Assembly (NCBI RefSeq): GCF_900116205.1
Contig: NZ_FOZS01000003.1
Coordinates: 248,001 to 312,000 of the forward strand
From: Halostagnicola kamekurae
GTDB taxonomy: Archaea; Halobacteriota; Halobacteria; Halobacteriales; Natrialbaceae
Direction: 5' to 3'
DNA length: 64,000 bases
The notes below the pieces were generated by a model. That model was not told the DNA's origin and made no database searches. It worked only from the letters and a program-made list of their open reading frames with translations. Below, one piece after another: positions 3,135 through 21,504 of the stretch; the first letter of the stretch is position 1; each line of letters begins with the position of its first letter. The position numbers and the translations under genes were made by a program.

Positions 3135-3632
3135 ATGGCAGGGAATTACGTCACGTCGGAGAACAACTTGCCCGAGGATCCGGTGGGGGAAGAGACTACC
3201 TTACAGATAAGTGATGAACGAACGAAAGAGATCTCGAGCGTTCGCGCCAGAATAGATAAAAACCCTGATAATCTAACGGATCCGGACACGTTAACGGTCG
3301 TCAAGGGACCACACGAGAACACCGAGGAGAAGTGGTACATCGACATCATCGAAACGGACGAGGGGGAGGACATCGACCTCGAACTGCTCGAGTCGACGAC
3401 CAGAGCGCTCGAGGAGGAGTCGACGGTCATCAACACGCGATCGAAAGAGGTGAAAACATTGTTACAGTATCTCACGGAGAAGGGGGAGTTTCAGTCCGTT
3501 TCCGAGGCGAGTCGGACGATCATGTTACAGCACCTTTCGGAAAACTACCCGAACCTCGTTAGCGAGTACATCGACCTGAAAGTACAATCCGAACGCACGG
3601 ACCTCGCCGAGGAATTATACGACCACGAATGA
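3135..3632 (+). CDS. Uncharacterised acidic protein, first gene of the UbiD operon
   Basis: 165 residues, strongly acidic, no family recognised. The N-terminal half is extended and charged. From about residue 100 the sequence looks helical; the segment near 118-130 (FQSVSEASRTIML) vaguely recalls ribbon-helix-helix proteins, which is only a resemblance. Its stop codon overlaps the start of the first UbiD gene (ATGA), so the two are very likely translated together. A TATA-like TTTTTATTT lies about 35 bases before the ATG at 3135. Possible jobs are an accessory or regulatory partner of the two UbiD paralogues; function unknown. Confidence 0.65.
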   Translation: MAGNYVTSENNLPEDPVGEETTLQISDERTKEISSVRARIDKNPDNLTDPDTLTVVKGPHENTEEKWYIDIIETDEGEDIDLELLESTTRALEEESTVINTRSKEVKTLLQYLTEKGEFQSVSEASRTIMLQHLSENYPNLVSEYIDLKVQSERTDLAEELYDHE

Positions 3633-5146
3633 CGACTGCCAGTCTCCGGACGTATTTACAGACGCTCGAATCGAGGGGAGACCTCCACCGGATCGACGAT
3701 TCCGTCTCGTGGAACCTCGAGGCCAGCGCCGTCACGATGGCGTCGAACAAAGAGGACAGCGCGATTCCCCTGTTCGACGACGTCGACGCCGCGCGGCTCG
3801 TGGGCGATCCGTATCGGGGGACACAGGAACGGCCGTGGGAACGCATCGCCCTGGGGCTGGGACTGCCGCCGGACCTCTCGGCTCGCGAATACTACGAAGC
3901 CGTTATCGACCGGCTGAAAGATCCGCGCGACCCGGTGACCGTTTCGACCGACGACGCGCCGTGCAAGGAGGTGGTCGTCGACGGTGATGACGTCGACCTG
4001 CTCGAATTTCCCTGGCCGTACATCCACGGCGGCGACGGCGGGCGCTACTCGAACGTCCACACGCTTATCGCGCCCGATCCCGACTCCTCGTGGGTCGACT
4101 GGTCGAACCACCGCTCGATGATACACGACGGCGAGAACGCGAGCGTCCTGTTGCTCGCCGGCGAACAGACGCCGAACCTCTACTACTACAAGTACGAGCG
4201 CCGCGACGAGCCGATGCCGGTCGCCATCGCGGTCGGCGTCGAACCCGCCGTGCAGTACACCTCCGTCATGTGGATCCCGACGGGCCGAAGCGAAGCGGAG
4301 TTCGCGGGGGGATTGAAGCAGGCACCCGTCGAACTCGTCCCCGCCGAGACGAACGACCTCATGGTGCCGGCGTCCGCCGAACTGGTAATCGAGGGCGAAA
4401 TCGTCCCCAACGAACGCCGAGACGAGGGACCGTTCGGCGACTACTTCGGGTATATGCACGGCCCGCGCCGATCGATGCCGCTGTTGCGAGTATCGTCGAT
4501 AACCCACCGCGAGAACCCGATTATACCCTTTTGCGTCGAAGGAACGGGCGTCGGCTACTCCGAGAACTCCACAAGTTCGATGGAAGTCGGCTGTGTCGGA
4601 CCCGACGCGACGCTCGGGCTCCGAGCGGCGGGTTTCGACGTCGAGAGCTGCGTTCCCTGGAAGTCGACGCCGCGGACCGTCTACGTCATCTCGACGGAGA
4701 CCACGGACGCCGGCTACCTCCACGAGCTCGCGAACTTCATCTTCACGACCTGGGGGATGCTCCACGTCGATTTCTTCGTCTTCGTCGACGGCGACGTCGA
4801 CCCGCTCGATCAGCGGGCGGTGCTCGAGGCGCTGGCGCTTCATGCCGATCCGGACACCGACTTTCACCAGTTCGGCGTCGAAACGATGCCGAAGGTCCCG
4901 CTGAACATCTACCAGACCCCGAACGAGAAGGGTAACGTCCAGACCGGCACGTCGAAGGCGAAATCGGCGAAGGCGTATATCGACGCCACGCGGTCCGAGA
5001 CCGACGGCGACTCGACGAGGGGGGCAGGCGGGCCGTCTCGAGGCGACGACGCAGAAGCCGAGTACCGCGCGCGGAAGATACTCGAGCGCGCGGGAGTCGA
5101 TACGGGAACCGCGTCGCCGCTCGACATGGAGGGGCTCGTTCGATGA
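3629..5146 (+). CDS. UbiD-family prenyl-FMN-dependent (de)carboxylase, catalytically complete by motif
   Basis: 505 residues, the usual length of UbiD/Fdc enzymes, which reversibly (de)carboxylate aromatic or alpha,beta-unsaturated acids using prenylated FMN. Family landmarks are visible: a SNHRSMIHD segment (near 155-163, cofactor-binding region with Arg), AELVIEGEI (about 250-258) and EGPFGDYFGYM (266-276), the loop holding the catalytic acid. No UbiX prenyltransferase gene is in the window. A 4-base overlap joins it to the gene before and another to the second UbiD gene after it. The C-terminal 70 residues include a charged low-complexity linker around 455-475. The substrate cannot be read from sequence; the setting suggests an aromatic acid. 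Confidence 0.9.
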   Translation: MTTASLRTYLQTLESRGDLHRIDDSVSWNLEASAVTMASNKEDSAIPLFDDVDAARLVGDPYRGTQERPWERIALGLGLPPDLSAREYYEAVIDRLKDPRDPVTVSTDDAPCKEVVVDGDDVDLLEFPWPYIHGGDGGRYSNVHTLIAPDPDSSWVDWSNHRSMIHDGENASVLLLAGEQTPNLYYYKYERRDEPMPVAIAVGVEPAVQYTSVMWIPTGRSEAEFAGGLKQAPVELVPAETNDLMVPASAELVIEGEIVPNERRDEGPFGDYFGYMHGPRRSMPLLRVSSITHRENPIIPFCVEGTGVGYSENSTSSMEVGCVGPDATLGLRAAGFDVESCVPWKSTPRTVYVISTETTDAGYLHELANFIFTTWGMLHVDFFVFVDGDVDPLDQRAVLEALALHADPDTDFHQFGVETMPKVPLNIYQTPNEKGNVQTGTSKAKSAKAYIDATRSETDGDSTRGAGGPSRGDDAEAEYRARKILERAGVDTGTASPLDMEGLVR

Positions 5147-6570
5147 CGCTTCGAACGCACCTCGAACGCCTCGCGGACGCGGGCGAGCTGGTGACCATCG
5201 ACGAGCAGGTCCACTGGGACGAGACTGCGGCTGCCGTCGGACGCGAGGCGATTCGATGCGGCGGTCCCGCGACGCTTTTCGACGAAACCCCGGAAACGGT
5301 ACGATTCGCGAGCGGCGTCTACGGCGGTCCGAGCCAGTTCTCGAGCCGATCACACCATCCCGGACGGCGGGTCGCACAGGCGCTCGGGCTCGGCGCCGAC
5401 TGTTCGTACGTGGAGTTGCTCGAGCACCTGTCCGGGCGCGAGACGGCCTCGCTCGAGGACCGACGAACCGAGCCGGCGGCGACCGACACCGACGACTCGG
5501 GAGACGTCCACGCCCTCGGCCTGCCGACGGTCGGAACCGAGCGGTACCCGCTCGTCTCGCTCGGCCTGCTCGCCGCTGAGAACGACGGGACGACGACCTG
5601 GGTGCCCATTCGCGGACAGGCCCTCCACAACGATCGACTCCGACTGTCGGTTCCCGAGGCATTCCTCGAGTGGTCTGAGCCGGAGTCGGGGGCGAGCGTG
5701 GTTCTCGGCGCGTCGGCCTGCTCGCTCGTCGCGGCGCTACAGGGCTGGACGCAGGATCGGACCGCGCCCGCGGTCCCCGAACGCGCCGCGGGACTGGCCG
5801 ACGTATCGCTGTCGACCGTCGGTTCGCGGGTTGTGCCGGCCGACGCCGAGGTCCGAATCGACGGTGCGATCCGCGTCGTCGAGGCCGCACCGCGCGGACC
5901 GAGCGCCGCCTGGGAGCTGACGTGTGACACCGCGACCGTGGAGCTTCGGGTCGACGAAATCGTCACCCGCGAGTCGCCGATCGTTTCGTTCACGCCCGCA
6001 ACCGGCCCGATGACGGACGATCTGCACCTGACGAGTCTCGTCGAGGCCGCCCAGCTATACAGGCGGGTCAACAACTACTGGGGTGTCTCGCCGGTCGAGT
6101 GGATCCAACTGCCCGTCGAGGCCAGCCTCGGGCTCTGTATCGTCTCGAGCGAGATCCTCTACGCCGGGTTCGAGTGGCAACTCGCGAACACGCTCTTTTC
6201 GTTCTCGAACGTATTCGACAAGGTCGTCGTGTTAGACGAGCAGGCCGACCCGACGAACCTCGCTCGAGCGGTCAACGACATGTGGGTGAAAGCGCACCCG
6301 GCGAACGACTGGACCTTCAGCGAGCCGAACGCGCCCGCAGCGACCGCGACGCGGTATCGTCGCGACGGCGAGACCGGCGCTCGGCTCTACGTCAACGCCA
6401 CGTGGGACCCGCGCTGGGACGAAGAGTACATCGCGCCACGGGTAACCTTCGAGACGACGTTCTCGGAGAACGTCCTCGAGGCCCTAGACGAGCGCTGGGA
6501 AGCGCTCGGACTGGACGAACTGCTCGGTTCGCGGGACCAGACGGCGGTTTCGGAGCACTTCCATGAGTGA
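5143..6570 (+). CDS. UbiD-family paralogue lacking the active-site acid loop
   Basis: 475 residues aligning in order with the preceding UbiD protein (SLRTYL/TLRTHL start, VPADAEVRIDGAI, conserved C-terminal NTLFSFSNVFDKVVVLD block), so it is a true paralogue. Where the partner has EGPFGDYFGYM this one has RGPSAAWEL (251-259), losing the catalytic Glu and the following acidic residue. The SNHRSM segment is also changed to PIRGQALHND. It is therefore probably not an independent decarboxylase. Stop-start overlaps on both sides (ATGA with the active UbiD gene, ATGAGTGA with the hydrolase gene) suggest fixed co-translation, as for a hetero-oligomer subunit. Confidence 0.8.
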   Translation: MTLRTHLERLADAGELVTIDEQVHWDETAAAVGREAIRCGGPATLFDETPETVRFASGVYGGPSQFSSRSHHPGRRVAQALGLGADCSYVELLEHLSGRETASLEDRRTEPAATDTDDSGDVHALGLPTVGTERYPLVSLGLLAAENDGTTTWVPIRGQALHNDRLRLSVPEAFLEWSEPESGASVVLGASACSLVAALQGWTQDRTAPAVPERAAGLADVSLSTVGSRVVPADAEVRIDGAIRVVEAAPRGPSAAWELTCDTATVELRVDEIVTRESPIVSFTPATGPMTDDLHLTSLVEAAQLYRRVNNYWGVSPVEWIQLPVEASLGLCIVSSEILYAGFEWQLANTLFSFSNVFDKVVVLDEQADPTNLARAVNDMWVKAHPANDWTFSEPNAPAATATRYRRDGETGARLYVNATWDPRWDEEYIAPRVTFETTFSENVLEALDERWEALGLDELLGSRDQTAVSEHFHE

Positions 6571-8600: not shown

Positions 8601-9443
8601 TTACTCGTCGGAGCCGGGTTCTTTGTCGCCGAGTTCGACGCCGAGGAAGTCCGGTTCGCGATCGTCGAGGAAGGCGTCGACGCCCTCTTTGGCGACATCG
8701 GAGCCGAGCAGACGGTTCTGCAGTTCGCGCTCGTGGGCGAGCGCGTCCGAAAGCGGCATCTCGAGGCCCTCGTTGACCGCGAGTTTGTTGTTGCCGACGG
8801 CGACGCTCGCTTTCGAGGCGATCAGCTCCGCGAACTCGAAGGCGGCATCTTCGATCTCGTCCGGCGGGTGAATCTCGTCGAAGATGCCCTTCTCGGTCGC
8901 TTCCTCCGGCGTGAGCGTCTCGCCGGTGAGCATCATTTCGAGCGCCTCCGAGCGGTCGATGTACCGCGGGAGCAATTGGGTGCCGGCCTCGCCCGCGATG
9001 AGTCCGAGGTGGATCTCGGGCATGCCGATGTTGTAGTTCTCGTCGTTGCCGACGTACCGGAAGTCACAGGCGAGCGCGAGCTCGAGCCCGCCGCCCATGC
9101 AGTGACCGTTGACCATCGCGATGAAGATGGTGTCTGTCGTCCGCATCTTCATGATGATCTCCTTGCTCGTCTGGCTCGCGTAGCCGACCTGTCGGCCCGA
9201 ATCCTCCTGGAGGACCTGGATGTCGAATCCCGTCGAGAAGAACTTGTCGTTCGCACTCCCGAAGAGAACCGCGCGGACGTCCTCGTCGAATCGAACCGCC
9301 TCGACGGCCCGCTGGAGCTCCAACAGCACGTCGATGTCGTGTGCGTTCGCCGGCGGCCGATCCAGCCGGAGTGTGCCCACGTGGTCGGTTACTTCTGTGG
9401 TGAAATACTCCAGATCCAGCTCACTGAACGGTCGGAGTTGCAT
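8601..9443 (-). CDS. Enoyl-CoA hydratase (crotonase family, both catalytic Glu present)
   Basis: 280 residues from the ATG at 9443 (a second ATG at 9452 adds three residues). It has the oxyanion-hole stretch FFSTGFDI (68-75), then HCMGGGLELALACDF with Glu 121 and GMPEIHLGL with Glu 143. These match the two glutamates that add water to 2-enoyl-CoA. It is thus a PaaF/hydratase-type member, unlike the genes at 2230 and 22281. The glycine loop is AGEAGTQ rather than PGGGGTQ. It lies about 120 bases downstream of the small zinc-ribbon gene of the paa unit on the same strand; a TATA-like CTTATAGG about 25 bases upstream suggests its own leaderless promoter. Confidence 0.85.
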   Translation of the reverse strand: MQLRPFSELDLEYFTTEVTDHVGTLRLDRPPANAHDIDVLLELQRAVEAVRFDEDVRAVLFGSANDKFFSTGFDIQVLQEDSGRQVGYASQTSKEIIMKMRTTDTIFIAMVNGHCMGGGLELALACDFRYVGNDENYNIGMPEIHLGLIAGEAGTQLLPRYIDRSEALEMMLTGETLTPEEATEKGIFDEIHPPDEIEDAAFEFAELIASKASVAVGNNKLAVNEGLEMPLSDALAHERELQNRLLGSDVAKEGVDAFLDDREPDFLGVELGDKEPGSDE

Positions 9444-9563: not shown

Positions 9564-9740
9564 TTACCGACCGGTTTCCGGATTCGCGCCGTCGTACTTG
9601 ATCCGTTCGAACATCGTGTTGCAGCCGTTGCAGTAGTACTGCGTCTTCGAGATTTCGCTGCCGAACGCGGACTCCCGCTCCGTGTCCTCGCTCCCGCAGA
9701 ACGGACACAACACGGTCGAATCGGAGACGTGATCGTTCAT
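9564..9740 (-). CDS. Stand-alone PaaD C-terminal zinc ribbon
   Basis: A 58-residue protein with Cys pairs at 12/15 and 37/40, enclosing CGSEDTERESAFGS. That pattern matches the C-terminal zinc-ribbon half of bacterial PaaD (CPRCGS-x-DTE-x2-S-x-FGS...). PaaD helps assemble or mature the phenylacetyl-CoA epoxidase. Here the DUF59 half is encoded separately at 10719-11114, so PaaD is split. The ATG at 9740 is 5 bases beyond the paaC stop, so it is translated as the last gene of the paaA-D-B-C unit. It is easily missed because of its size. Confidence 0.85.
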   Translation of the reverse strand: MNDHVSDSTVLCPFCGSEDTERESAFGSEISKTQYYCNGCNTMFERIKYDGANPETGR

Positions 9741-9745
9741 CGTCG

Positions 9746-10510
9746 TCAGTTCATCGTGTACAGCTGGTTTTTCTCGCCCCGGAGCTGCTCGACGTCCGTT
9801 TGGCTGATCGAGCCGGAGTCGGACCGTCGTCGCTTCTCGTCCCAATCCTCGAGAGCGGGTTCGTCCCACTCGACGCCCTCGAGCGAGACGTCGGTCCCCT
9901 CGAACAGGCGCTGGTAGTGGTCGATGTAGGCGTCACGAATGTCAGCGACCGACCGGTCGGTGAAGCCGGCGGTGTAGACGGGATCGGCTTCCTCGTCGTA
10001 CTCCGACGGGCCGATGAGCGCGAGCGCCTGCGGTAACGTCGTCTCGAGGGTTTGCTGGACCGTTTCGGGATCCTCCTCGGCGAGCGTCTCGAGGCGGGCG
10101 TCGTGGTACTCGAGGTGGAAGTACTCGTCTTCGCCCATCTTGGTGAACATGCCGTCTAGATCCTCACGGTCGATCGCATCGATGAGGTACCACGCGGCGC
10201 GATCAGCAGGCGCGATCGAGGCGACGTACTCCGTCCAGTTCCCGTCGATCCGATCGAGACAGGCGGCGTTCGCGAACTCCTCGGGATCCCGCCCACCGTT
10301 TATCCACTCGAGGTCGCGTCCCTGTCCCTCGAGTTCGCGCGCGAGTTGGCGAACGTGACCGATCTCCTCCTGTGCCGCGCTCGCCCCGCCGATGTCGTCC
10401 TCGAGCGAGGGTCCGGAGAGGCTCCACTCGGCATAGCGGTGCCCCAGGAGGAGCTTCGTGTCGGAGATCGCCTGCACGTAGTCAACCGCGGGTTCTGGCC
10501 ACTCACTCAC
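9746..10510 (-). CDS. paaC: PaaC-type subunit of ring 1,2-epoxidase
   Basis: 254 residues from a GTG at 10510, which overlaps the end of paaB by 8 bases (GTGAGTGA). A longer open frame upstream only reads through paaB in another frame. A ferritin-like helical protein with AQEEIGHVRQLAREL (near 60) and DAIDREDLDGMFTKMGEDEYFHLEYHDARL (about 120-145). PaaC is the structural partner of PaaA, and in bacteria it lacks the working di-iron site. The last 30 residues are charged and variable. Gene order and the neighbouring paaA, B and D support the call more than any single motif. Confidence 0.88.
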   Translation of the reverse strand: MSEWPEPAVDYVQAISDTKLLLGHRYAEWSLSGPSLEDDIGGASAAQEEIGHVRQLARELEGQGRDLEWINGGRDPEEFANAACLDRIDGNWTEYVASIAPADRAAWYLIDAIDREDLDGMFTKMGEDEYFHLEYHDARLETLAEEDPETVQQTLETTLPQALALIGPSEYDEEADPVYTAGFTDRSVADIRDAYIDHYQRLFEGTDVSLEGVEWDEPALEDWDEKRRRSDSGSISQTDVEQLRGEKNQLYTMN

Positions 10511-10712
10511 CGGCGACCACCTCGCGTTCGGGCTGTTCGCCGCTGACCTCGTGGAGGTTCTCCTCGCGGACGACGGCCAGGTAATTCCAGTCTTCTTCGT
10601 CGAAGGTGTTGTAGGCGTACATCTGTGCAAGTTTGTCGCTCTGTGCGGTGACGGTACCGATGTGGAGGGTATCGTCACCCTGGTTTATTCGTGCGAATAC
10701 TTCGTACTTCAT
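10503..10712 (-). CDS. paaB: PaaB-type small subunit of ring 1,2-epoxidase
   Basis: 69 residues, beginning MKYEVFARI and containing HIGTVTAQSDKLAQMYAYNTFDE. This is the PaaB pattern (xYEVFxR...HVGSxxAxDxExAxxxARDxYxRR) without the usual C-terminal length; bacterial PaaB is about 95 residues. PaaB bridges the PaaAC heterodimers into the functional complex. It starts 6 bases after the paaD stop and overlaps paaC by 8 bases. The gene order A-D-B-C differs from the E. coli A-B-C-D-E order. Confidence 0.85.
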   Translation of the reverse strand: MKYEVFARINQGDDTLHIGTVTAQSDKLAQMYAYNTFDEEDWNYLAVVREENLHEVSGEQPEREVVAGE

Positions 10713-10718
10713 CGGTGA

Positions 10719-11114
10719 TTAGAGGCTGATACCGGACTCGCGCATCTTTTCGCGGACCGGTTCGGTGAGCATGTCCTTCGACCAGACGGGATCCCAGACG
10801 ACCTCGACGTCGACCTCGTCGACGCCGTCGGTCAGCGATAGGCAGCTCTCGATGTCGTTCTGGATCATGTCGTAGGCGGGACAGCCCATACACGGGTAGG
10901 TCATTTCGACGGAGACGGTGCCGTCGGATTCCTCGACGTCGTAGATCATCCCCATCTCTACGAGGCTGACGGGAATGTGCGGATCCGGGATTTCGTCGAT
11001 CATGTCCCAGAGTTCCCGCTCGAACGGCGTCGCGTCGGCGCGTCGGTTCTCGACGAACTTGCCGGCCAGATCGGTTCCGACGGAATCCGGTGCGTTTGCG
11101 CGTGCGCTCGACAT
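10719..11114 (-). CDS. paaD: PaaD DUF59/MIP18-type protein (N-terminal half of classical PaaD)
   Basis: 131 residues. The DUF59 core starts near 40: DEIPDPHIPVSLVEMGMIYDV, then YPCMGCPAYDMI with Cys 75 and 78. MIP18/DUF59 proteins help assemble iron-sulfur or di-iron centres, and bacterial PaaD is required for phenylacetyl-CoA epoxidase activity. The zinc-ribbon domain that normally follows is missing here and encoded three genes downstream (9564-9740). The ATG at 11114 is only 2 bases from the paaA stop. A long frame extends upstream but overlaps paaA entirely in another frame, so it was discarded. Confidence 0.88.
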   Translation of the reverse strand: MSSARANAPDSVGTDLAGKFVENRRADATPFERELWDMIDEIPDPHIPVSLVEMGMIYDVEESDGTVSVEMTYPCMGCPAYDMIQNDIESCLSLTDGVDEVDVEVVWDPVWSKDMLTEPVREKMRESGISL

Positions 11115-11116
11115 TG

Positions 11117-12037
11117 TTACACCTCGAGCTCCACGGTTCCGGACTGGACCATGTTCACGTACTTGTCGTTGGCGGGCCCGCGCGAGCGCCACCGGTCCAT
11201 GACGTCGGACCACGAAATCGGCTCGTCGAAGCGCCACTCCTTGTTGTCGGCGTCGAACGCCACCGGGAGCTCGTATTCGAGGACGTACTCGTCGCGCTCC
11301 TCGCTGTAGTGGGCGGGAACGTCGAGGTCGAGTTCGTTCATCAGCGGGAGCGTCCGAGAGAGCCAGTCCTGACGGAGTTCGTCGTTGGACTTGCCCTTGA
11401 TGCGGTACTCGAGCTGGTCGTCGTGTTTTTTCTTGTCGTCGGGCATGCCGAACCACTCGACGCCCATCGGGAACATCCAGTCGATGGCCTCCTGCAGTCG
11501 GCGTTTGGTCTTCTCGCTGTTGTTCGCCAGTCGGCGCATCCACGTCTCGCCGTGACGAAGGTGGAACTGTTCTTCCTTGCTCACCTTTGTGAGCGCGCGC
11601 TTCCAGGGTGCGTAGGAGGTGTTCTCGTGGATGTCGCTGAGGAGCACGATCCCGGCGCGGTCGAAGATGCCGTGAGCCGTGACGAGCTCGGCGAAGTTCT
11701 CGATGTGCTGGTCGAACCCGTACGTGTTACGGAACTCGTGGGGCTCTCGCTCGTAGATGAGTTCGTGTCGGTCCTCGCCGAGGTCCTCGAGCAGCCGGTA
11801 GGCGATGTGACCGTGGCCGAGTTCGTCCTGGATGACGCTGATACACGAAGCGCGCGCGTCGAGCGACGGCGCGTTGAGCGACTGGTCGTAGTAGGCCGGC
11901 GCGCTCATGAGTTCGGTGTCGCCCGAGACGAGCAGGATCTGTTTGAGGGCTTTCTTGTACCCTGCGGTCATCTCGTCGGTCGATTCGATCATCTTCCCGT
12001 TCTGGAGTTCGTCCTTGAGTTGTGATTCCGTGGGCAT
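11117..12037 (-). CDS. paaA: PaaA-type catalytic di-iron subunit of a CoA-ester ring 1,2-epoxidase
   Basis: 306 residues, like bacterial PaaA (about 310). The di-iron carboxylate pattern is visible: QDELGHGH (Glu 72, His 75), NFAELVTAHGIFDRAG (112-129) and the second ExxH in SKEEQFHLRHGE (Glu 156, His 159). The enzyme epoxidises the ring of phenylacetyl-CoA or a related aroyl-CoA with O2 and reductant from PaaE. Within the family it is divergent, so benzoyl-CoA or another CoA ester is possible. I chose the ATG at 12037; the GTG at 12067 would precede the transcript start expected from the TATA box (TTATAA, about 12076-12081). A GTATAC-N7-GTATTT element lies just upstream of that box. Confidence 0.9.
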   Translation of the reverse strand: MPTESQLKDELQNGKMIESTDEMTAGYKKALKQILLVSGDTELMSAPAYYDQSLNAPSLDARASCISVIQDELGHGHIAYRLLEDLGEDRHELIYEREPHEFRNTYGFDQHIENFAELVTAHGIFDRAGIVLLSDIHENTSYAPWKRALTKVSKEEQFHLRHGETWMRRLANNSEKTKRRLQEAIDWMFPMGVEWFGMPDDKKKHDDQLEYRIKGKSNDELRQDWLSRTLPLMNELDLDVPAHYSEERDEYVLEYELPVAFDADNKEWRFDEPISWSDVMDRWRSRGPANDKYVNMVQSGTVELEV

Positions 12038-12089
12038 AGCTCGTTTCGTCCGATTAGTAGTTGTCACCCCAGGGTTATAATTGTTTTCT

Positions 12090-12108
12090 GTATACGTCTG
12101 GCGTATTT
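12090..12108. promoter_or_regulatory. Candidate operator GTATAC-N7-GTATTT at the paaA promoter
   Basis: One perfect GTATAC half and one degenerate half (GTATTT) spaced by 7 bases, 53-71 bases before the paaA ATG and next to the TATA box (about 12076-12081). The same 6-N7-6 arrangement occurs four more times in the window (13289, 13509, 33011, 33169). Its place next to the promoter of the epoxidase unit suggests a catabolic regulator site. Protein binding is inferred. Confidence 0.5.
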
Positions 12109-12278
12109 ACCGCCCGAATTGCCGATGGTATCAGTCGGACCGTTGACTTGACTATCGGAGCGGATTTGTGTCTGGACGGTAACACTACCGTTCGACGTCA
12201 GTACTCGAGACGAGACCACCACGTTTTTCGCCGATTCGAGCAGTGCCTTTTTTGGTAGTCCAACCCAGACAGTAGGAC

Positions 12279-12776
12279 ATGTCGTACGAGATACGCCACG
12301 CGAGCGTCGACGACGGCGAGGAACTGCTCGAACTCTGGCACGGGTTCACCGAACACCTCTCGAAATACGACGAGCGGTATCAGCACAAAGAAAGCGCCAA
12401 CGACCGCTGGCTCCAGTACTTCGAGAGTCAGTTGCTCGATTCGAAGTACGGGACGGTCATCGTGGCCGAACACGAGGAGACGGGCGAACTCGTCGGCGTC
12501 CTCGAGGCGCGTATCATGGGGAACCATCCGATCTTCCGCCTCCAGAACCACGGCTACATCAACGGTCACTTCGTCGCCGAGGACCACCGCGGAAACGGCA
12601 TCGGATCGGCGTTGCTATCGGAAGTCCACGAGTGGTTCGCAGACTCCTCGAAGGACGTCGATTTCTACCGCGTCGATACCATCGACGGCGACGCAGACTC
12701 ACAGGAGTTCTACGAATCCGAGGCGTTCGACCCGGTCGAGCATGTCTACGAGAAATCGATCGACCAGGACCACTGA
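12279..12776 (+). CDS. GNAT-family N-acetyltransferase
   Basis: 165 residues with the GNAT acetyl-CoA loop HRGNGIGSALL (about 106-116), preceded by the beta-strand HFVAEDH. The substrate may be a small molecule or a protein; it cannot be told. The gene starts the divergent unit opposite paaA, ends 3 bases before the ferredoxin start and is probably co-transcribed with it. A T-rich TATA-like TTTTTTGG lies about 28 bases before the ATG. Why an acetyltransferase should pair with the oxygenase ferredoxin is unclear; modification of an aromatic amine or of an enzyme is possible but untested. Confidence 0.85.
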   Translation: MSYEIRHASVDDGEELLELWHGFTEHLSKYDERYQHKESANDRWLQYFESQLLDSKYGTVIVAEHEETGELVGVLEARIMGNHPIFRLQNHGYINGHFVAEDHRGNGIGSALLSEVHEWFADSSKDVDFYRVDTIDGDADSQEFYESEAFDPVEHVYEKSIDQDH

Positions 12777-12779
12777 ACC

Positions 12780-13064
12780 ATGGTCGAGACTTACACAGTC
12801 GAGTTCATCGATGAGGGCCAGACGATCGAGGTACCGGCCAACAAGCCGGTGCTCGAGGCGGCCGAAGAGGCCGGCCTCGCACCCCCCTACCAGTGTCGGA
12901 TGGGTGTCTGTGGCGTCTGCTGTGGCATGATCGTCGAGGACGGCGAAGTCGACCAGACCGAGGGGATGTTCCTCTCCGAGAGCGAAAAGGAGGAGGGCTA
13001 CGCGCTGACCTGCATCGCGAAGCCGCGATCGAACTTGCGCATTCGAACCGACGAGAGCCCCTGA
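12780..13064 (+). CDS. Plant-type [2Fe-2S] ferredoxin equivalent to the C-terminal domain of PaaE
   Basis: 94 residues with Cys 39, 44, 47 and 78 in the plant-type C-x4-C-x2-C...C pattern (CRMGVCGVC and LTCIAKP). The context GEVDQ...LSESEKEEGYALTC closely resembles the C-terminal ferredoxin domain of PaaE, the reductase of phenylacetyl-CoA epoxidase. The FAD/NAD(P)H domain that precedes it in PaaE is missing here and not encoded nearby. It probably carries electrons to PaaAC, with its reductase elsewhere in the genome. It follows the GNAT gene by 3 bases and faces away from paaA. Confidence 0.88.
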   Translation: MVETYTVEFIDEGQTIEVPANKPVLEAAEEAGLAPPYQCRMGVCGVCCGMIVEDGEVDQTEGMFLSESEKEEGYALTCIAKPRSNLRIRTDESP

Positions 13065-13891: not shown

Positions 13892-15544
13892 TTACTGGCG
13901 CTCACGCTCGCGAAGTTCGGTTCGGCGAATCTTCCCGGTCTCCGTGCGCGGAAGCGTCTCCATGAACTCGACCGCACGCGGGTACTTGTACGGCGCGAGC
14001 GTGTTCTTGACGTGGTTCTGAATCTCCTCGACCAGCCCGTCAGAGGCCGACGCGTCGTCGGTCAGCACGACGAACGCCTTGACGATCTCGCCGCGTTCTT
14101 CGTGGGGACTTCCGGTCACGGCGACCTCCGAGACGGCGTCGTGTTCCTCGACGACGGCCTCGACTTCGGGGCCCGGAATGTTGTATCCACTCGAGATGAT
14201 GAGGTCGTCGCTGCGGGATTTGTACTCGAGGCGCCCGTCCTCGCGCTGGACGAAGATGTCGCCCGGGATCGACCACCCGTCCTCGACGGCCTCGAGTTGC
14301 TTTTCGGGCCGGTTCCAGTACTCGATTCCCGTCGGGCCGCGGACTGCGAGCAGTCCGGCTTCGCCGCGGGGTACCTCCTCGCCCGTGTCGGGATCGATGA
14401 TCTTGCACTCATAGCCCGGAACCGGGAAGCCGGTCGCACTGGGATCGATGTCGCCGTCGTGGCGGTGACTGATGAAGATGTGGAGCATCTCCGTGGTTCC
14501 GATGCCGTCAAGCAGCGGGATTCCGTACTCCTCTTGGAAGTTCTCGAAGGTGGTCGGCGTCAGCGGTTCCCCCGCGCTGAGGCCGACTCGAAGCGACGAG
14601 ATATCGTACTCCGACGGCCCGTCGGGATACTGTGAAAGGATCTGATTGAACCCCGTCGGGATCGAACAGAGCACCGAGACCTCGTGCTCGTCGACCGCCT
14701 CGAGGAGGTCGCCGGGCGAGGCGTCTTCGACCAGACTCGTGGTCGCGCCGAACCGGAGCGGGAACGTGACGAGGTCGCCGTAGCCGTAGGCGAACGGAAG
14801 CGGGGGGTTGCCGCCGAAGACGTCTTCTTCCGTCGGCTCCAGACAGTATCGCGCGTACGAATCCGCGGTCGCCAGGACCTGTCTGTGGGTGTGGATCGCC
14901 CCCTTCGGTCGGCCCGTCGTCCCGCTCGTATAGAGCATGAGCGCCAGGTCGTCGCGGTCGGTCTCGTACGCCTCAAGGTCCTCGCTCCCGTCGTCGAGCA
15001 TGTCGTCGTAGCTACGATAGCCGTGATCGACGCCGTTTCGCTCGGCGACGACGACGGTTTCGACGGTCTCGAGTTCGGGAAGCGCGTTCTCGACTTCCTC
15101 GAGGAGGTCGTCGTAGACGACGACGGTCGTCGCCTCGGCGTTGTTGATGATGTACTCGAGTTCCTTTGCCCGAAGCAGTTTCATCGACGGCAGCGCCACG
15201 GCGCCGATCTTCTGGGCCGCGAGACAGGAGACGATCGCCTCCGGCCGGTTCGGGAACCTGACGACGACGCGGTCGCCCGGTTCGACCCCCGACTCTCGGA
15301 GCGCGTTTCCGAATCGGTTAACGCGCGACTGTAACTCCTCGTAGGTGATCTCCCGGTCTTCGAAGCGTACCGCGACGTTGTTTCCGCGTCCCTCCCGAAC
15401 GTGTCGGTCGACAAGTTCGTCGACCACATTCAACTGTTGAGGGTAGTGTGCCTCCGGTACCGGGTGGATGTAATCCGGCGTGTCACCATCGTCTGGTAGA
15501 TACTCCGCTGGAACAGTTTCCTGCATGTACGAGTAGTTCATCAT
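13892..15544 (-). CDS. Benzoate-CoA-ligase-type AMP-forming acyl-CoA ligase
   Basis: About 550 residues of the ANL superfamily. Motifs: LYTSGTTGRPKGAIHTH (A3, about 205-221), GIGTTEML (about 345), IPGDIF and YKSRSDDLIISSGYNI (hinge region), and catalytic Lys in TGKIRR near the C-terminus. The pattern is of the benzoate/2-aminobenzoate-CoA ligase branch rather than PaaK, so it likely activates an aromatic acid with ATP and CoA for the PaaA-type epoxidase. It starts a leftward unit upstream of the paa region. ATG at 15544 gives the longest form. The ATG at 15526 fits better with the TATA-like TTTTAAG (15547-15553) and a leaderless transcript. Confidence 0.85.
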   Translation of the reverse strand: MMNYSYMQETVPAEYLPDDGDTPDYIHPVPEAHYPQQLNVVDELVDRHVREGRGNNVAVRFEDREITYEELQSRVNRFGNALRESGVEPGDRVVVRFPNRPEAIVSCLAAQKIGAVALPSMKLLRAKELEYIINNAEATTVVVYDDLLEEVENALPELETVETVVVAERNGVDHGYRSYDDMLDDGSEDLEAYETDRDDLALMLYTSGTTGRPKGAIHTHRQVLATADSYARYCLEPTEEDVFGGNPPLPFAYGYGDLVTFPLRFGATTSLVEDASPGDLLEAVDEHEVSVLCSIPTGFNQILSQYPDGPSEYDISSLRVGLSAGEPLTPTTFENFQEEYGIPLLDGIGTTEMLHIFISHRHDGDIDPSATGFPVPGYECKIIDPDTGEEVPRGEAGLLAVRGPTGIEYWNRPEKQLEAVEDGWSIPGDIFVQREDGRLEYKSRSDDLIISSGYNIPGPEVEAVVEEHDAVSEVAVTGSPHEERGEIVKAFVVLTDDASASDGLVEEIQNHVKNTLAPYKYPRAVEFMETLPRTETGKIRRTELRERERQ

Positions 15545-15631: not shown

Positions 15632-16405
15632 TCAGGTCCAGAATCCGTCCGGGTCGAAGGTTCGGATCAGCCCGAGCTCCTCGCCCGTCGGTTCCGGCGT
15701 CGTCGTCACCGGACCCTCGCCGACGTCCGCTGCCGTCTGGACCTCCCACGGGAAATCGGCGGCGACGGCCGCTTCGTCCGCGCCCGGATGGAGACTGCGG
15801 AGGTAGAGTTCGCCGTCGTCGTCGAAGCCGAACGTCGCCTTCGAGGTGACGAGCGCGCTCGGTCCGCCGCCCGACTCCGGGTGGGTGTTCCGTCCGGACC
15901 CATCGCTCGCGTGGCCTGGGCTGGTGACGTAGTGGACCGATTCCACGAACCGGCGCGGTTCGTGGGGCATCAGCAACACGGTCCGGTCGGCGAGACAGGC
16001 GATGTCGCAGGCACCGCCGCTGCCCGGGAGACGAATCTCCTGGTCGCCGCCCTGCACCCACGTGGTGTTCAGGTTGCCGTACCGGTCGACCTCCGCACCC
16101 CCCAGAAAGCCGACGTCGACGTCGCCGCGCTGGAGGCGGGACATGATGTCGATCATCCCCGTCGTCGACACCGCCCGATTCAGGTTCGGCAGATCACACA
16201 TCGTGTGGATAAACCCGTCCGCGGGCGAATCCCGTACGACGCCGCTCTCGTAGACCGCCATCGAGTTCGGTGCGTGGGTGCTCACCGCGACCTGAAACGC
16301 GATCAGCGGCAACCGCATACCGACGAACGCGGTGTCGCCGTCCTCGATCTCGCTCGCCGCCGCGCTGACCATCAGTTCTCTGTCCGTGTACTCCTCACTG
16401 GCCAT
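15632..16405 (-). CDS. CoA-transferase family subunit B (GctB-like)
   Basis: 257 residues of the type I CoA-transferase beta subunit. VYESGVV (about 50-56) contains the Glu that forms the acyl-CoA adduct in glutaconate CoA-transferase GctB. LGGAEVDRYGNLNTTWVQGG and LPGSGGACDIA (about 95-130) are the typical beta-subunit lines. It transfers CoA between small acids, or acts as a hydrolase in relatives such as IpdB. The ATG at 16405 overlaps the end of the alpha gene by 11 bases, so the two subunits are co-translated. In this island it could activate the substrate or process a dicarboxylic ring-cleavage product such as 3-oxoadipate. Confidence 0.82.
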   Translation of the reverse strand: MASEEYTDRELMVSAAASEIEDGDTAFVGMRLPLIAFQVAVSTHAPNSMAVYESGVVRDSPADGFIHTMCDLPNLNRAVSTTGMIDIMSRLQRGDVDVGFLGGAEVDRYGNLNTTWVQGGDQEIRLPGSGGACDIACLADRTVLLMPHEPRRFVESVHYVTSPGHASDGSGRNTHPESGGGPSALVTSKATFGFDDDGELYLRSLHPGADEAAVAADFPWEVQTAADVGEGPVTTTPEPTGEELGLIRTFDPDGFWT

Positions 16406-17288
16406 ACTGCACCTCCGCGGAGACTGTCGGCTCGGTGATCTCGAGATCGCGTTCCACGAGCGTCTCGTACTCGGCCCGGCCGTCGACACCGTAGACCCAC
16501 TTCTCGGCCCACTCCTCGAACGCTCCCTGAGTCTTCGTCTGTTCGCTGTACTCGAGGTAGTAGTCGTTGTCCCGGTTGTAGTAGCCGGCAACTGGCGAGG
16601 GATGCGCGCCGAACGGACACTCCGCGACCGCCGTCACCGCGTCTCGAGTGATACCGACCCTGCTCGGGTCGCTCTTGATTACGTCGGGGGAAACGATCTC
16701 CTCCGCGGTGACGAGGACGTTATCCGCGGCACCGACGGCGGGGTCGGTGATGCCCGTGTTTCCCCAGAGGTGTGCGTCCCCGTCGGGGCTGGCCCGCTGG
16801 GCGTGGACGATTGCCCAGTCAGGCTCGATGGCCGGAACGAGCGCCAGCCGGTCGCCGCCGAAGGGATCTTCCCCCTCGCGAAACAGTTCGCTTCGCTCGA
16901 AAATGTCGCTCCCGAGCAGCGACTTCGTCGGCAGGTAGGGCACGCCCATCGCTCCCGCCTGCAGCGCCAGCGCGATACTGAAGTTGGAGTGGTCCTCGAC
17001 GCTGATCGCGTCGGTCTCGACGGCCTCTCTGAACCGGTAGCCCGTGCCGGCGCTGACGTTCCCGGCCCACGCGGCCCGAACGGCGGCGACCGCGTCCCCG
17101 CCGATCAGTTGATCGAACAGCAGGTCGCTGATCGGCCCGATCAGCGTGAGATCATCGATTCCCTGTCGGAGCAGTTCGTGTCCCGCCGCGAACGGAATCG
17201 CGTGCTCGAGCGCGAGTCCGGCCGCGATCGAACTTCCCGAATCGATTCGGGAGACGGCCTCCTCGAGCGTCGCTACGTCGTCCGTCAT
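16395..17288 (-). CDS. CoA-transferase family subunit A (GctA-like)
   Basis: 297 residues, the alpha partner of the preceding entry. Typical features are IAAGLALEHAIPFAAGHELLRQGIDDLTLIGP (20-51) and AIVHAQRASPDGDAHLWGN (about 160-178). The protein is of GctA/CatI type, not the SCOT type. ATG at 17288; TATA-like GATTTAAC lies about 30 bases upstream, suggesting a leaderless bicistronic message. It is divergent from livK, with 110 bases between the starts, so uptake and CoA chemistry may share control. An IpdA-like ring-hydrolase role is a less likely alternative. Confidence 0.82.
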   Translation of the reverse strand: MTDDVATLEEAVSRIDSGSSIAAGLALEHAIPFAAGHELLRQGIDDLTLIGPISDLLFDQLIGGDAVAAVRAAWAGNVSAGTGYRFREAVETDAISVEDHSNFSIALALQAGAMGVPYLPTKSLLGSDIFERSELFREGEDPFGGDRLALVPAIEPDWAIVHAQRASPDGDAHLWGNTGITDPAVGAADNVLVTAEEIVSPDVIKSDPSRVGITRDAVTAVAECPFGAHPSPVAGYYNRDNDYYLEYSEQTKTQGAFEEWAEKWVYGVDGRAEYETLVERDLEITEPTVSAEVQYGQ

Positions 17289-17378: not shown

Positions 17379-17398
17379 GTGGTGTGCACACAAACCAT

Positions 17399-18661
17399 AT
17401 GTCTCGTAGAGACACGGATACACCTAGCAAGGGGGATAGTACCAATGATGCCAACGATCGAGGACCGACATCGACGCTCTCGCGTCGACAGTATCTTGCG
17501 GGAACCGCGGCGGCAGGCGTTGGGGCGACGTTGGCGGGGTGTACGGGTGGCTCGTCCGGACTCACCGTCGGCTACGCGCTTCCGTTTACGGGAACCTACG
17601 CGTACCTCGGCGAAAGTATCGTCAACGGATTCGAGATGTACCTCGAACAGCAAGACGGCGAAATCAACGGCGAGGAAGTCAACACCGTCCAACTCGACAC
17701 GGAGGCCGATACCAACCGCGGCGTGGAGGTCACGCGACAGCTGCTCATCGAAGAGGGGGCGGATGCGATCGTGGGTCCGGTCTCGAGTGCCGTCGCCATC
17801 GCGATGATGGATATCATCGAAACGGAATCGAGTGCCATCTGGCTCAACGCGAACGCTGGTGACTACCGCGTCACGCAGGAAGGGTGCCTCGACTACCACT
17901 TCCGAACCTCGTTCAACGACTGGCAGACGAGCGCGCCGCTCGCCGAGTGGGTCTACGACAACGTCGCCGACAACGTCTCTCTGTCCTACGCGGATTATGC
18001 CTTCGGCCAGAATTCGAAGAATTTCTTCAGCGAAGCCTTCCAAGAGGCCGGCGGTGAAGTCGTCGAGGAAGTCGGCATCCCGCTGGGAACGAGCGACTAC
18101 GCCCCGTATCTCGGCGACATCGAAGATTCGGGCGCTGACGCCATCTACTCGTTCTTCGCCGGCTCCGATGCCATCAACTACGTCGACGATCTCACCGACC
18201 TCGGCATTCACGAGGAGATGACCCAGACTGCGAGCGGGTTCATGTTCTCGGAGGATACGCTCCCCTCGCACGGAAGCGAGGCGGCGGGCATGTACTCGCT
18301 GCTCCACTACTCGTCGACGATCGAGAGCGAGCGGAATCAGACCTTCGTCGAGGCGTACAACGAACTCTACGACGCGTCCGCCAACGTCTACGCCTGCCAG
18401 GGATACGACTCGGGTCAGGCGTTCGGCGCGGCGATCGAGGAAGCCGGCGGCTCGGACCCGGACGACCTCGTCAGTGCCCTCTCCGGGATGGAACTCGAGA
18501 GCCCGCGCGGGGACTTCCAGTTCAACCCGGACACCCACGAGGCGATTCAGGACATGTACGTCCTCGAGGTCGTCGAGAGCGACGGCGAGAACGCAGTCGT
18601 AAACGAAGTGACCGATACGATCGAATCGGTCGAAGGACCGTCCTGGGGTTGCAGCCTGTGA
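17399..18661 (+). CDS. livK: Branched-chain-amino-acid/aromatic-acid type ABC substrate-binding lipoprotein (LivK family)
   Basis: 420 residues. A twin-arginine signal with SRRQYL and a lipobox LAGC (ends near residue 46) predicts Tat export and lipid anchoring, common in haloarchaea. The mature part follows the periplasmic-binding type I fold: LTVGYALPFTGTYAYLGESIVNG, then NRGVEVTRQLLIEEGADAIVGPVSS. HAAT-family binding proteins take up branched amino acids, amides, urea or aromatic acids. Beside aromatic-CoA genes, an aromatic acid is a reasonable guess. The gene is the first of livKHMGF. The ATG at 17399 is chosen because of the TATA box position. Confidence 0.88.
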   Translation: MSRRDTDTPSKGDSTNDANDRGPTSTLSRRQYLAGTAAAGVGATLAGCTGGSSGLTVGYALPFTGTYAYLGESIVNGFEMYLEQQDGEINGEEVNTVQLDTEADTNRGVEVTRQLLIEEGADAIVGPVSSAVAIAMMDIIETESSAIWLNANAGDYRVTQEGCLDYHFRTSFNDWQTSAPLAEWVYDNVADNVSLSYADYAFGQNSKNFFSEAFQEAGGEVVEEVGIPLGTSDYAPYLGDIEDSGADAIYSFFAGSDAINYVDDLTDLGIHEEMTQTASGFMFSEDTLPSHGSEAAGMYSLLHYSSTIESERNQTFVEAYNELYDASANVYACQGYDSGQAFGAAIEEAGGSDPDDLVSALSGMELESPRGDFQFNPDTHEAIQDMYVLEVVESDGENAVVNEVTDTIESVEGPSWGCSL

Positions 18662-18697
18662 GTCGAATGATCGACACGAACTCGCCCCACTGCGGGC

Positions 18698-19621
18698 ATG
18701 TCAGACGACCGAACGCTCGAGACGAACGCACGCAACGGGGGCCAATCGCGAATGGTTGAGGCGTTCATCCGAGCGACGTTGCTCGGTCTCCAACTCGGCA
18801 TGACGCTCGCGCTCATCGCCGCGGGGTTGACCCTGATCTTCGGCATGCTCGACGTGATCAACTTCGCGCACGGATCGTTGTTCATGCTGGGGGCGTACTT
18901 CGGAACGATCATCGCGGGCCAGTTCGGAAACTTCTGGCTGGCGCTGCTCGTCGCCCCGCTCCTGGTCGGCGTCATTGGCGCTGCCATCGAAATACTGTCG
19001 CTTCGACCGCTTTACGGTCGTAACCCGCTGTATCACATCCTGTTGACCTTCGGCATCGCGATCATGATACAGGGCGCGATCGTCCAGATCTGGGGCGCAC
19101 AGTCCCGCCAGATGGCGACGCCCGAAATCCTCTCCGGATCGATTCCGGTCGGCCCGATCGAGTACCCGATCTACTGGCTGTTCGTGTTCGTCTTCAGTTC
19201 GGTGTTGGTCGGGGCGATCTGGCTCGCGATCGAACGGTCGAATCTGGGCATCCTGATGCGCGCGAGCGCTCACGATACGGAGATGGTCGACGCGCTCGGA
19301 ATCGACGTCTCGAAGGTGTTCACCGGCGTCTTCGTCTTCGGCGCGATACTCGCCGGCGTCGCCGGGGTCCTCCTGAGTGGCACCCAGTCGGTCAACCCCG
19401 GTATGGGATTCAACGTCATCATCGAGGCGTTCATCATCGTCGTTATCGGTGGCCTCGGCAGCTTCCGCGGAGCGGTGTACAGCGCGTTGCTGATCGGGTT
19501 GGTGACCGCCTACGGGGCGCTGCTCGCGCCGACGCTGACGGACCTCATCTTGTTCGTGCTGATGGCACTCGTACTGATGGCGAAACCGAGCGGACTCTTC
19601 GGAACCACGGAGGCAGCATAA
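18698..19621 (+). CDS. livH: ABC transporter permease (LivH family)
   Basis: 307 residues with about eight hydrophobic segments. LQLGMTLALIAAGLTLIFGMLDVINFAHG is the LivH N-terminal signature, and the EAA-like loop lies around LGIDVSKVFTGVFVFGA. It forms the membrane channel with LivM. ATG at 18698 is used; an internal ATG at 18752 would remove 18 polar residues and is also possible. It starts 36 bases after livK and ends next to the livM ATG. Confidence 0.88.
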   Translation: MSDDRTLETNARNGGQSRMVEAFIRATLLGLQLGMTLALIAAGLTLIFGMLDVINFAHGSLFMLGAYFGTIIAGQFGNFWLALLVAPLLVGVIGAAIEILSLRPLYGRNPLYHILLTFGIAIMIQGAIVQIWGAQSRQMATPEILSGSIPVGPIEYPIYWLFVFVFSSVLVGAIWLAIERSNLGILMRASAHDTEMVDALGIDVSKVFTGVFVFGAILAGVAGVLLSGTQSVNPGMGFNVIIEAFIIVVIGGLGSFRGAVYSALLIGLVTAYGALLAPTLTDLILFVLMALVLMAKPSGLFGTTEAA

Positions 19622-20701: not shown

Positions 20702-20703
20702 CT

Positions 20704-21504
20704 ATGACGACGAGTACGACAGATGCACACTCGAACACGACCGCGGATGGTATCGTCCTCGAGACAGAGGATCTGACGAAAACGTTCGGGACGTTGACGG
20801 CCGTCGAGGACGTCTCGCTCCGGGTCGAGTCCGGAACGATCACCTCGATCATCGGCCCGAACGGGGCGGGAAAGACGACGCTTTTCAACCTTTTTACCGG
20901 CAAACACGCCCCGACGGACGGAGAGATCTGGTTCCGCGGTTCCCCGATCGGCGGGCGGGAACCACACGACATTGTCTCGAGCGGCGTCGTTCGCTCGTTC
21001 CAGATCACGAACTTCTTCGACGAGCTCACGGCGCTCGAGAACGTCCGACTCGCGACGCAGGCGCGTCACACCGGCTTTCGACCCGGCGATTTCGTTCGCC
21101 ACCACGGCGCTATCGGCGGGCCGATCGAGGAGGCAAACGAAATCCTAGAGCGGGTCCACCTCTCGGCGGTCGCAGACCGCCCGGCGGCGAACCTCTCCTA
21201 CGGGCAGCGCCGCCACCTCGAGATCGCGATCTCGCTCGCTGCCGATCCGGAGCTGTTACTGATGGACGAACCCACGGCCGGAATGAGCCCCGAGGAGACC
21301 AGAGAGACGGTCGAGTTGATCAGGGAGATCGCAGACGACGTGACGCTGATACTCATCGAACACGACATGGACATCGTCATGGACATCTCCGATCGCATCG
21401 CGGTGATGAACAAGGGATCGTTGCTGGCACGGGGAACGCCGGCGGAGATCAAGCGAGACGACCGGGTCCAGGAGGCGTACCTCGGAGGTGGTGGCGGTGA
21501 GTAA
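20704..21504 (+). CDS. livG: ABC transporter ATPase (LivG family)
   Basis: 266 residues with Walker A GPNGAGKTT (near 53-61), signature LSYGQRRHLEIA (about 164-175) and Walker B LLLMDEPTAGMSPEE. The long insert after Walker A (GFRPGDFVRHHGAIGG) is typical of LivG, as opposed to LivF. It powers import through LivHM from the cytoplasmic side. The glycine-rich C-terminal end carries the ribosome-binding sequence for livF inside its own coding DNA (GGAGGTGG at 21484-21491). Confidence 0.9.
   Translation: MTTSTTDAHSNTTADGIVLETEDLTKTFGTLTAVEDVSLRVESGTITSIIGPNGAGKTTLFNLFTGKHAPTDGEIWFRGSPIGGREPHDIVSSGVVRSFQITNFFDELTALENVRLATQARHTGFRPGDFVRHHGAIGGPIEEANEILERVHLSAVADRPAANLSYGQRRHLEIAISLAADPELLLMDEPTAGMSPEETRETVELIREIADDVTLILIEHDMDIVMDISDRIAVMNKGSLLARGTPAEIKRDDRVQEAYLGGGGGE

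Follow-up and report, generated by a model that had tools for sequence, protein, structure and literature searches.

We find that a gene cluster of Halostagnicola kamekurae (GCF_900116205.1, contig NZ_FOZS01000003.1), located in the 64,000-nt stretch from 248,001 to 312,000 that we analysed as a whole and call the window, probably encodes a diiron oxygenase of several components that belongs to a sister clade of canonical PaaABC, and not the usual phenylacetate enzyme. We here name this clade ADBCZ, after the gene order A-D-B-C-Z. Our joint explanation, to which we assign a probability of about 0.6, is that the ADBCZ oxygenase would epoxidise an aromatic acyl-CoA of the benzoyl-CoA type and would be fed by ferredoxin without PaaE. 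The genes concerned, in window positions, are:

3629..6570, plus strand: two UbiD-family genes (PF01977/PF20695/PF20696; the second without a central Rift-domain match)
8601..9443, minus strand: enoyl-CoA hydratase/isomerase family protein (PF00378, E 1e-51), adjoining the epoxidase genes
9564..9740, minus strand: zinc ribbon corresponding to the C-terminal half of PaaD, here a gene of its own (58 aa; PF23451 Zn_ribbon_PaaD, E 5.5e-17)
9746..10510, minus strand: PaaC-like structural subunit (254 aa; PF05138, E 2e-19)
10503..10712, minus strand: PaaB-like bridging subunit (69 aa; Pfam E 0.0012; TIGR02157 E 4e-5)
10719..11114, minus strand: DUF59 half of PaaD, probable Fe/Fe-S maturation factor (131 aa; PF01883, E 4e-17; DUF59/FeS_assembly_P only)
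11117..12037, minus strand: PaaA-like catalytic diiron subunit of the ADBCZ clade (306 aa; PF05138, E 9e-62)
12279..12776, plus strand: GNAT-family protein (acetyltransferase; PF00583, E 1e-13), 3 bp upstream of the ferredoxin gene
12780..13064, plus strand: stand-alone plant-type [2Fe-2S] ferredoxin (94 aa; Fer2, E 4e-17)
13892..15544, minus strand: benzoate-CoA-ligase-family acyl-CoA ligase (TIGR02262, 383.6 bits)
15632..16402, minus strand: CoA-transferase family subunit beta (PF01144)
16395..17288, minus strand: CoA-transferase family subunit alpha, nearest to glutaconate CoA-transferase (PF01144; 1poi, E 7e-42)
17384..22255, plus strand: branched-chain-type ABC transporter, five genes (from ORFs and the annotation of the orthologous Halostagnicola larsenii locus)

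The minus-strand genes follow the order paaA-paaD (DUF59 only)-paaB-paaC-zinc ribbon, with overlaps or gaps of 2–6 bp, and the GNAT-ferredoxin pair diverges from them on the plus strand. This confirms in sequence the gene content, order and positions that a first-pass annotation had given for 9564–13064. The split arrangement, whose conservation across haloarchaeal genomes that annotation had proposed to check, is kept in every orthologous haloarchaeal locus examined (24 loci), which is far beyond chance. As the PaaB match is weak, the naming of this subunit leans on its position and on its orthologues, found at the same place in all 24 loci. The enoyl-CoA hydratase/isomerase gene is syntenic in most orthologous haloarchaeal loci. 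Own-genome searches returned only two PF05138 genes and a single copy of Zn_ribbon_PaaD.

The division of PaaD is borne out by TIGR02159, the model of the fused bacterial protein, of which positions 1–89 are covered by PaaD and 103–144 by the zinc ribbon, so that the domain boundary falls between separate genes. Searches of the genome for a fused paaD or a fused paaE elsewhere found neither. The two PaaD parts would assist metal insertion. The first-pass annotation had read the split PaaD and the missing PaaE as setting a haloarchaeal system apart from the bacterial one, and this contrast fails on two counts: both traits typify the whole sister clade across many bacterial phyla, where strict A-D-B-C-Z order is found in 55/64 bacterial loci and D is fused to Z in none of the 64, and canonical haloarchaeal Paa has a split PaaD too, already modelled by NCBIfam.

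In a tree of A subunits, canonical PaaA (12 rows, SH-aLRT 100) stands apart from ADBCZ-A (48 rows, SH-aLRT 93), and the window PaaA groups with the latter, together with the gene order, the separate zinc ribbon and the lack of a lysine bridge. The clade spans haloarchaea and, to judge by record titles, ten or more bacterial phyla. All diiron ligands (E42/E72/H75/D126/E155/H158) are retained in the window PaaA, while the lysine bridge K68/E49 is missing, with Y49 and V68 in its place. The bridge is missing throughout the ADBCZ clade and present in Klebsiella and in nearly all canonical haloarchaeal PaaA examined; its loss could mean different chemistry. In PaaC the ligand pattern is K-E-H-D-E-H, with E42 replaced by K. 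An AF2 model of PaaA (pLDDT 94.6) has PaaA structures as its best Foldseek matches (TM 0.80–0.83) and resembles BoxB weakly. PaaA would hold the diiron site and carry out the epoxidation, with PaaB and PaaC as bridging and structural subunits.

The cluster shares with canonical PaaABC(D)E of E. coli and Klebsiella the PaaA/PaaC pair of ferritin-like diiron proteins, a PaaB-like protein, the DUF59 and zinc-ribbon parts, the six metal ligands and the fold (TM about 0.8), but it differs in gene order (A-B-C-D-E in the canonical system), in having PaaD in two genes, no PaaE and no lysine bridge, in sequence (about 26–28% identity) and in the benzoate-type ligase nearby. Canonical haloarchaeal Paa (NF041867, NF041868 and NF041869, the last being its zinc ribbon, there named PaaE) is alike in its split PaaD and in that no PaaE reductase was found in the 12 loci examined, whereas its order is A-B-C with D and Z behind, its lysine bridge is present, identity is about 31–35%, and a GNAT-ferredoxin pair was seen close to a single locus (L065) among the 12. 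Both systems coexist in several genomes. Clusters of Thermus, Agrobacterium, Rubrobacter, Chloroflexota and Gemmatimonadota have the same five genes in the same order, with split PaaD and no PaaE. BoxAB would resemble the window system in aerobic CoA-ester epoxidation of a benzoyl-type substrate, but there BoxB is one 470-aa subunit, matched by the window PaaA at only E 0.004, and BoxA is a 4Fe-4S flavoprotein.

The ferredoxin scores 86.3 bits against TIGR02008 (cut-off 81.15) and is dedicated to ADBCZ paaA: it is present in exactly the same 42 of 392 genomes, a match that does not amount to 42 independent events because the haloarchaea sharing the cluster are related, and the gap between the two genes is 94–2420 bp in the 42 genomes. 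The idea of a PaaE reduced to one domain is not supported, as the protein scores best with plant-type ferredoxins and, in a weakly resolved tree, falls among free-standing ferredoxins of haloarchaea and away from the Fer2 domains of PaaE. The ferredoxin gene is the second of a pair with GNAT, which the first-pass annotation left unmentioned; GNAT is always paired with it and is kept in 24/24 loci. The pair is absent within 8–9 kb of the ADBCZ clusters in Thermus, Agrobacterium, Rubrobacter, Chloroflexota and Gemmatimonadota. In haloarchaea, electrons would come via the plant-type [2Fe-2S] ferredoxin encoded divergently beside paaA, and other ferredoxins of these genomes could serve too.

No FAD/NAD reductase is encoded near the cluster, as had been claimed, and no PaaE reductase (FAD/NAD plus Fer2) was found in the cluster or by searches of the genome, which holds two FAD_binding_6 flavoproteins, both without a Fer2 domain; a donor other than PaaE must therefore supply the electrons. 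Likewise, neither FNR nor Fer2 lies near the cluster in the 64 bacterial ADBCZ loci; of 16 bacterial genomes that carry the cluster, only two have the PaaE equivalog and three are without any PaaE-like match. Haloarchaea make reduced ferredoxin via 2-oxoacid:ferredoxin oxidoreductases (PMC8305020), PorA/KorA-type genes are present in the Halostagnicola genome, and an FNR-like flavoprotein gene occurs in 74/74 genomes, divergent from korAB in 15/16. We regard these oxidoreductases and the conserved flavoprotein encoded beside korAB as universal candidate donors, and the ferredoxin is probably reduced from this general pool, by either or both, and not by PaaE.

Benzoyl-CoA, or a substituted form of it, produced by the neighbouring ligase is the most likely substrate. 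This ligase passes TIGR02262 narrowly (cut-off 375.25) and its best PDB match is benzoate-CoA ligase 2v7b; the family also takes in other aryl- and some acyl-CoA ligases. Members of the benzoate-CoA-ligase family adjoin five bacterial clusters (542–672 bits, cut-off 375), and two Chloroflexota clusters adjoin a PaaK-type ligase instead. BoxB (TIGR03225) has no match in the Halostagnicola genome and occurs in just one of the 16 cluster-bearing bacterial genomes; we recognised no BoxC-like enzyme for ring opening. The benzoate-CoA-ligase-family genes that lie close by, both in this genome and in bacteria that mostly lack BoxB, suggest a benzoyl-CoA-type substrate.

Alternatively, the cluster could encode a regular phenylacetyl-CoA epoxidase of haloarchaea in which PaaD and PaaE happen to be split, since matches to Paa families are found for PaaA, PaaC and both halves of PaaD, and canonical haloarchaeal Paa has its PaaD split as well. 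We consider this improbable, and the assignment to a canonical Paa system is not supported: the scores stay under the equivalog cut-offs of the bacterial models (bits/cut-off: PaaA 133/280, PaaB 24/85, PaaC 41/133, PaaD 77/108) and of the haloarchaeal models (PaaB 20/150, PaaD 111/180, zinc ribbon 43/100), PaaA lies in the sister clade and is devoid of the lysine bridge, 18 of 42 haloarchaeal genomes carry a further PF05138 pair besides the ADBCZ one, and the ligase is of the benzoate type, not the PaaK type. Less easily dismissed, but still unlikely in our judgement, is a substrate other than a benzoyl-CoA, for instance a cyclic acyl-CoA that is not aromatic, or whatever the UbiD-family pair produces. 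About half of the haloarchaeal loci also contain UbiD-family genes, the PaaA site is no longer lined by the lysine bridge, and some bacterial clusters are without a nearby ligase; against this, benzoate-type aryl-CoA ligases recur beside clusters from haloarchaea to Rubrobacter, Bacillota and Chloroflexota.

As to the electrons, the ferredoxin that drives the oxygenase could be reduced by a separate FAD/NAD(P)H reductase whose gene lies elsewhere in the genome. The same contig encodes, some 42 kb away from paaA, a 237-aa protein related to the reductase domains of BenC, MmoC and PaaE, which is mildly enriched (found in 13 of the 42 genomes where 7.5 would be expected; P 0.02, kinship ignored). 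A close homologue is missing in 29/42 genomes, for which reason we reject it as an obligate partner, and when every ORF of 47 haloarchaeal loci (a few genomes being represented twice) and of 64 bacterial loci was clustered without bias, no reductase recurred near the cluster. We thus give this alternative little credence. The first-pass annotation had held that a different reductase must drive the system, had proposed a search for one that co-occurs with the split arrangement, and had named a reductase gene that normally joins the cluster as a refutation; no specific one emerged on either account, and of that claim a donor other than PaaE stands, while the need for a dedicated reductase does not.

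The ADBCZ clade is a little-noticed sister family common to these archaea and many bacteria, far broader than the first-pass annotation supposed. We tentatively extend the favoured reading to propose that PaaE-free Paa-type benzoyl-CoA epoxidases, across haloarchaea and ten or more bacterial phyla, may replace BoxAB where BoxB is missing, with the haloarchaeal ones using a [2Fe-2S] ferredoxin of their own that 2-oxoacid oxidation keeps reduced; if so, aromatic ring oxygenation would draw on the ferredoxin pool instead of NAD(P)H. A literature search for archaeal oxygenases of the benzoyl-CoA or Paa type that lack PaaE gave nothing specific and no report of activity. PaaA and PaaC have been put forward as markers for phenylacetate degradation in genomes (PMC13186573), and ADBCZ proteins, annotated 'Phenylacetic acid catabolic protein', could be miscounted in such surveys. 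The clade may also partly explain why archaeal Paa sets look incomplete, and it offers a natural test of the role of the lysine bridge in electron transfer and of whether a diiron ring epoxidase can run on ferredoxin without a flavin reductase of its own.

Among the remaining neighbours, the CoA-transferase pair was considered as IpdAB and rejected, being nearer to glutaconate CoA-transferase, and the ABC transporter is likely to serve in aromatic acid uptake.

The window holds a Paa-type gene cluster whose parts are arranged as follows.

11117-12037, minus strand: paaA
10719-11114, minus strand: paaD, DUF59 domain only
10503-10712, minus strand: paaB
9746-10510, minus strand: paaC
9564-9740, minus strand: zinc ribbon, 58 aa
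12279-12776, plus strand, divergent from the paaA cluster: GNAT gene
12780-13064, plus strand, divergent from the paaA cluster: ferredoxin gene, 94 aa

The five minus-strand genes are tightly packed or overlap, and the GNAT gene, an addition to the gene list of the first-pass annotation, lies 3 bp from the ferredoxin gene. That list and its gene order are otherwise borne out by the window ORFs and their domain matches. TIGR02159, the model of the fused bacterial PaaD, is matched at positions 1-89 and 103-144 by two separate window proteins. As the source genome contains no PF05138 gene beyond paaA and paaC and no second PaaD zinc ribbon, and neither of its two FAD_binding_6 proteins has a Fer2 domain, it has no fused PaaE or PaaD elsewhere, either of which would have refuted the first-pass reading. 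The GNAT-family gene pairs with the ferredoxin gene in all 24 orthologous haloarchaeal loci, and with the ferredoxin gene and paaD in four divergent Paa-like loci (L060-L062 and L065).

This system is distinct from canonical Paa. Its Paa proteins reach the equivalog cut-offs of neither the bacterial nor the haloarchaeal Paa models. A paaA at least 59% identical to that of the window is found in 42 of 392 genomes of the order, where the other matches comprise a few intermediates at 40-42% and a remainder at about 30-38%; 18 of the 42 have one or more PF05138 pairs besides this one. A tree built from every A and C subunit places canonical PaaA in a single group (12 rows, SH-aLRT 100), to which the A subunits of the ADBCZ type, so named after the order paaA-paaD-paaB-paaC-zinc ribbon, are sister (48 rows, SH-aLRT 93).

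Thermus thermophilus PaaA is 50-51% and the plasmid-borne Agrobacterium PaaA 38% identical to the window protein, and both organisms have paaA, a short paaD, paaB and paaC followed by an unannotated zinc-ribbon ORF. Among the best 80 of 270 confirmed relatives from a GTDB genome scan, record titles name Chloroflexota, Gemmatimonadota, Dormibacterota, Actinomycetota, Bacillota, Pseudomonadota, KSB1, Neomarinimicrobiota, Acidobacteriota, Bipolaricaulota and haloarchaea. The strict order is kept in 55 of 64 bacterial loci, the other nine being mostly truncated at contig ends or obscured by stop-to-stop ORF calling. None of the 64 has a D-Z fusion, which the same method did detect in the validating Klebsiella control, and this, together with the sister grouping, makes the split PaaD a feature of the clade. 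The split that the first-pass annotation observed is thus real, but its framing as a haloarchaeal peculiarity does not hold, and the group behind it is bigger than was assumed. For haloarchaea the split is already on record, since NCBIfam models PaaB, PaaD (127 aa, DUF59 only) and a 56-aa zinc ribbon separately (NF041867-NF041869). Two annotation issues mask it: NF041869 labels this ribbon 'PaaE', and the records of Haloterrigena turkmenica, Thermus and Agrobacterium list no gene for the zinc-ribbon ORF behind paaC. In several clusters of Gemmatimonadota and Gammaproteobacteria (L122, L125, L136, L138, L165 and others), an extra DUF59 gene sits immediately upstream of paaA. A 2026 survey (PMC13186573), in which no separate treatment of the ADBCZ clade was found, describes mostly incomplete PAA configurations in archaeal genomes; no description of the clade was found in the literature searched, most subscription journals being outside its reach.

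The diiron ligands of E. coli PaaA are Glu42, Glu72, His75, Asp126, Glu155 and His158, and its Lys68 is linked to Glu49, Glu72 and Asp126 in a 'lysine bridge' for which a role in electron transfer has been proposed (PMC4498308). All six ligands are conserved across the ADBCZ clade, except in the divergent locus L059, which has Gln for Glu155. No ADBCZ member has K68 or E49, which Klebsiella PaaA and almost every canonical haloarchaeal PaaA in the comparison possess. An AlphaFold2 model of the window PaaA (pLDDT 94.6) gives TM 0.80-0.83 to PaaA crystal structures and a weak match to BoxB. Haloarchaeal PaaC (loci L063-L074) retains all or nearly all of the diiron ligands lost in Klebsiella PaaC; in PaaC of the window clade (window 9746-10510) mostly five are retained, with Lys at position 42.

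The ferredoxin had been read as a PaaE reduced to its ferredoxin domain. As a history this is unsupported, because the protein is a plant-type ferredoxin above the TIGR02008 cut-off with a much lower PaaE score, the solved structures closest to it are those of free ferredoxins, and in a small tree, poorly resolved in its remainder, PaaE Fer2 domains form a group (97/92) distinct from this and other free haloarchaeal ferredoxins. It may nevertheless functionally replace the PaaE Fer2 domain. This ferredoxin (at least 57% identity) occurs in precisely the 42 genomes that have window-type paaA, a match inflated by shared ancestry, and the two genes lie 94-2420 bp apart in them; we find it convincing that the ferredoxin is a dedicated partner of this paaA. 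In the stretches examined, bacterial ADBCZ loci contain no Fer2 protein or FNR-type reductase. Of 16 bacterial genomes with the cluster, many of them draft or metagenome assemblies, only two encode a PaaE equivalog, and three lack a PaaE-like match of any kind.

A different reductase had been proposed as electron donor. Unbiased clustering of all ORFs surrounding the haloarchaeal and bacterial loci revealed none that recurs there. A 237-aa flavoprotein on the same contig can be dismissed as a required partner, since only 13 of the 42 paaA genomes have it (7.5 expected). In haloarchaea, the oxidation of pyruvate and of 2-oxoglutarate passes electrons to ferredoxin instead of NAD, and nitrate assimilation draws on ferredoxin (PMC8305020). 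The source genome has two PorA/KorA-type genes, and we infer that the Paa-linked ferredoxin is supplied from this 2-oxoacid/ferredoxin pool. A second, FNR-like flavoprotein of 212 aa is present in all 74 genomes tested; in 15 of 16 haloarchaeal genomes its gene divergently adjoins korAB, which are 2-oxoacid:ferredoxin oxidoreductase-type genes. This protein is well suited as a candidate link between ferredoxin and NAD(P)H, although its second domain gives no match to the Pfam NAD-binding model, and is a candidate for the ferredoxin-reoxidising enzyme that PMC8305020 leaves to be assigned. In the source genome its gene lies outside the window (G000:C2:1164958-1165593; see also L186:4456-7906).

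Our best guess for the substrate is a compound of the benzoyl-CoA type. The window ligase narrowly exceeds the benzoate-CoA ligase family cut-off (383.6 vs 375.25) and is closest to benzoate-CoA ligase 2v7b. Ligases beside the ADBCZ clusters of Marinithermofilum, Rubrobacter and three metagenome genomes are strongly over it (542-672 bits), and in two Chloroflexota clusters the ligase is of PaaK type instead. BoxB is absent from the source genome and over its cut-off in only one of the 16 bacterial genomes. With the nearby crotonases, aldehyde dehydrogenase, hydroxyacyl-CoA dehydrogenase gene, thiolase and branched-chain-type ABC transporter, the cluster forms an aromatic-acid degradation island. 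About half of the haloarchaeal loci also have a UbiD-family pair, which may make or use a compound related to the cluster substrate. In the window, a complete UbiD adjoins a second family member (5143-6570, plus strand) whose matches cover the UbiD domains at both termini but not the central Rift domain; it is possibly a non-catalytic partner. A 165-aa protein without Pfam or NCBIfam match (3135-3632, plus strand) is conserved upstream of the pair in 16 loci.
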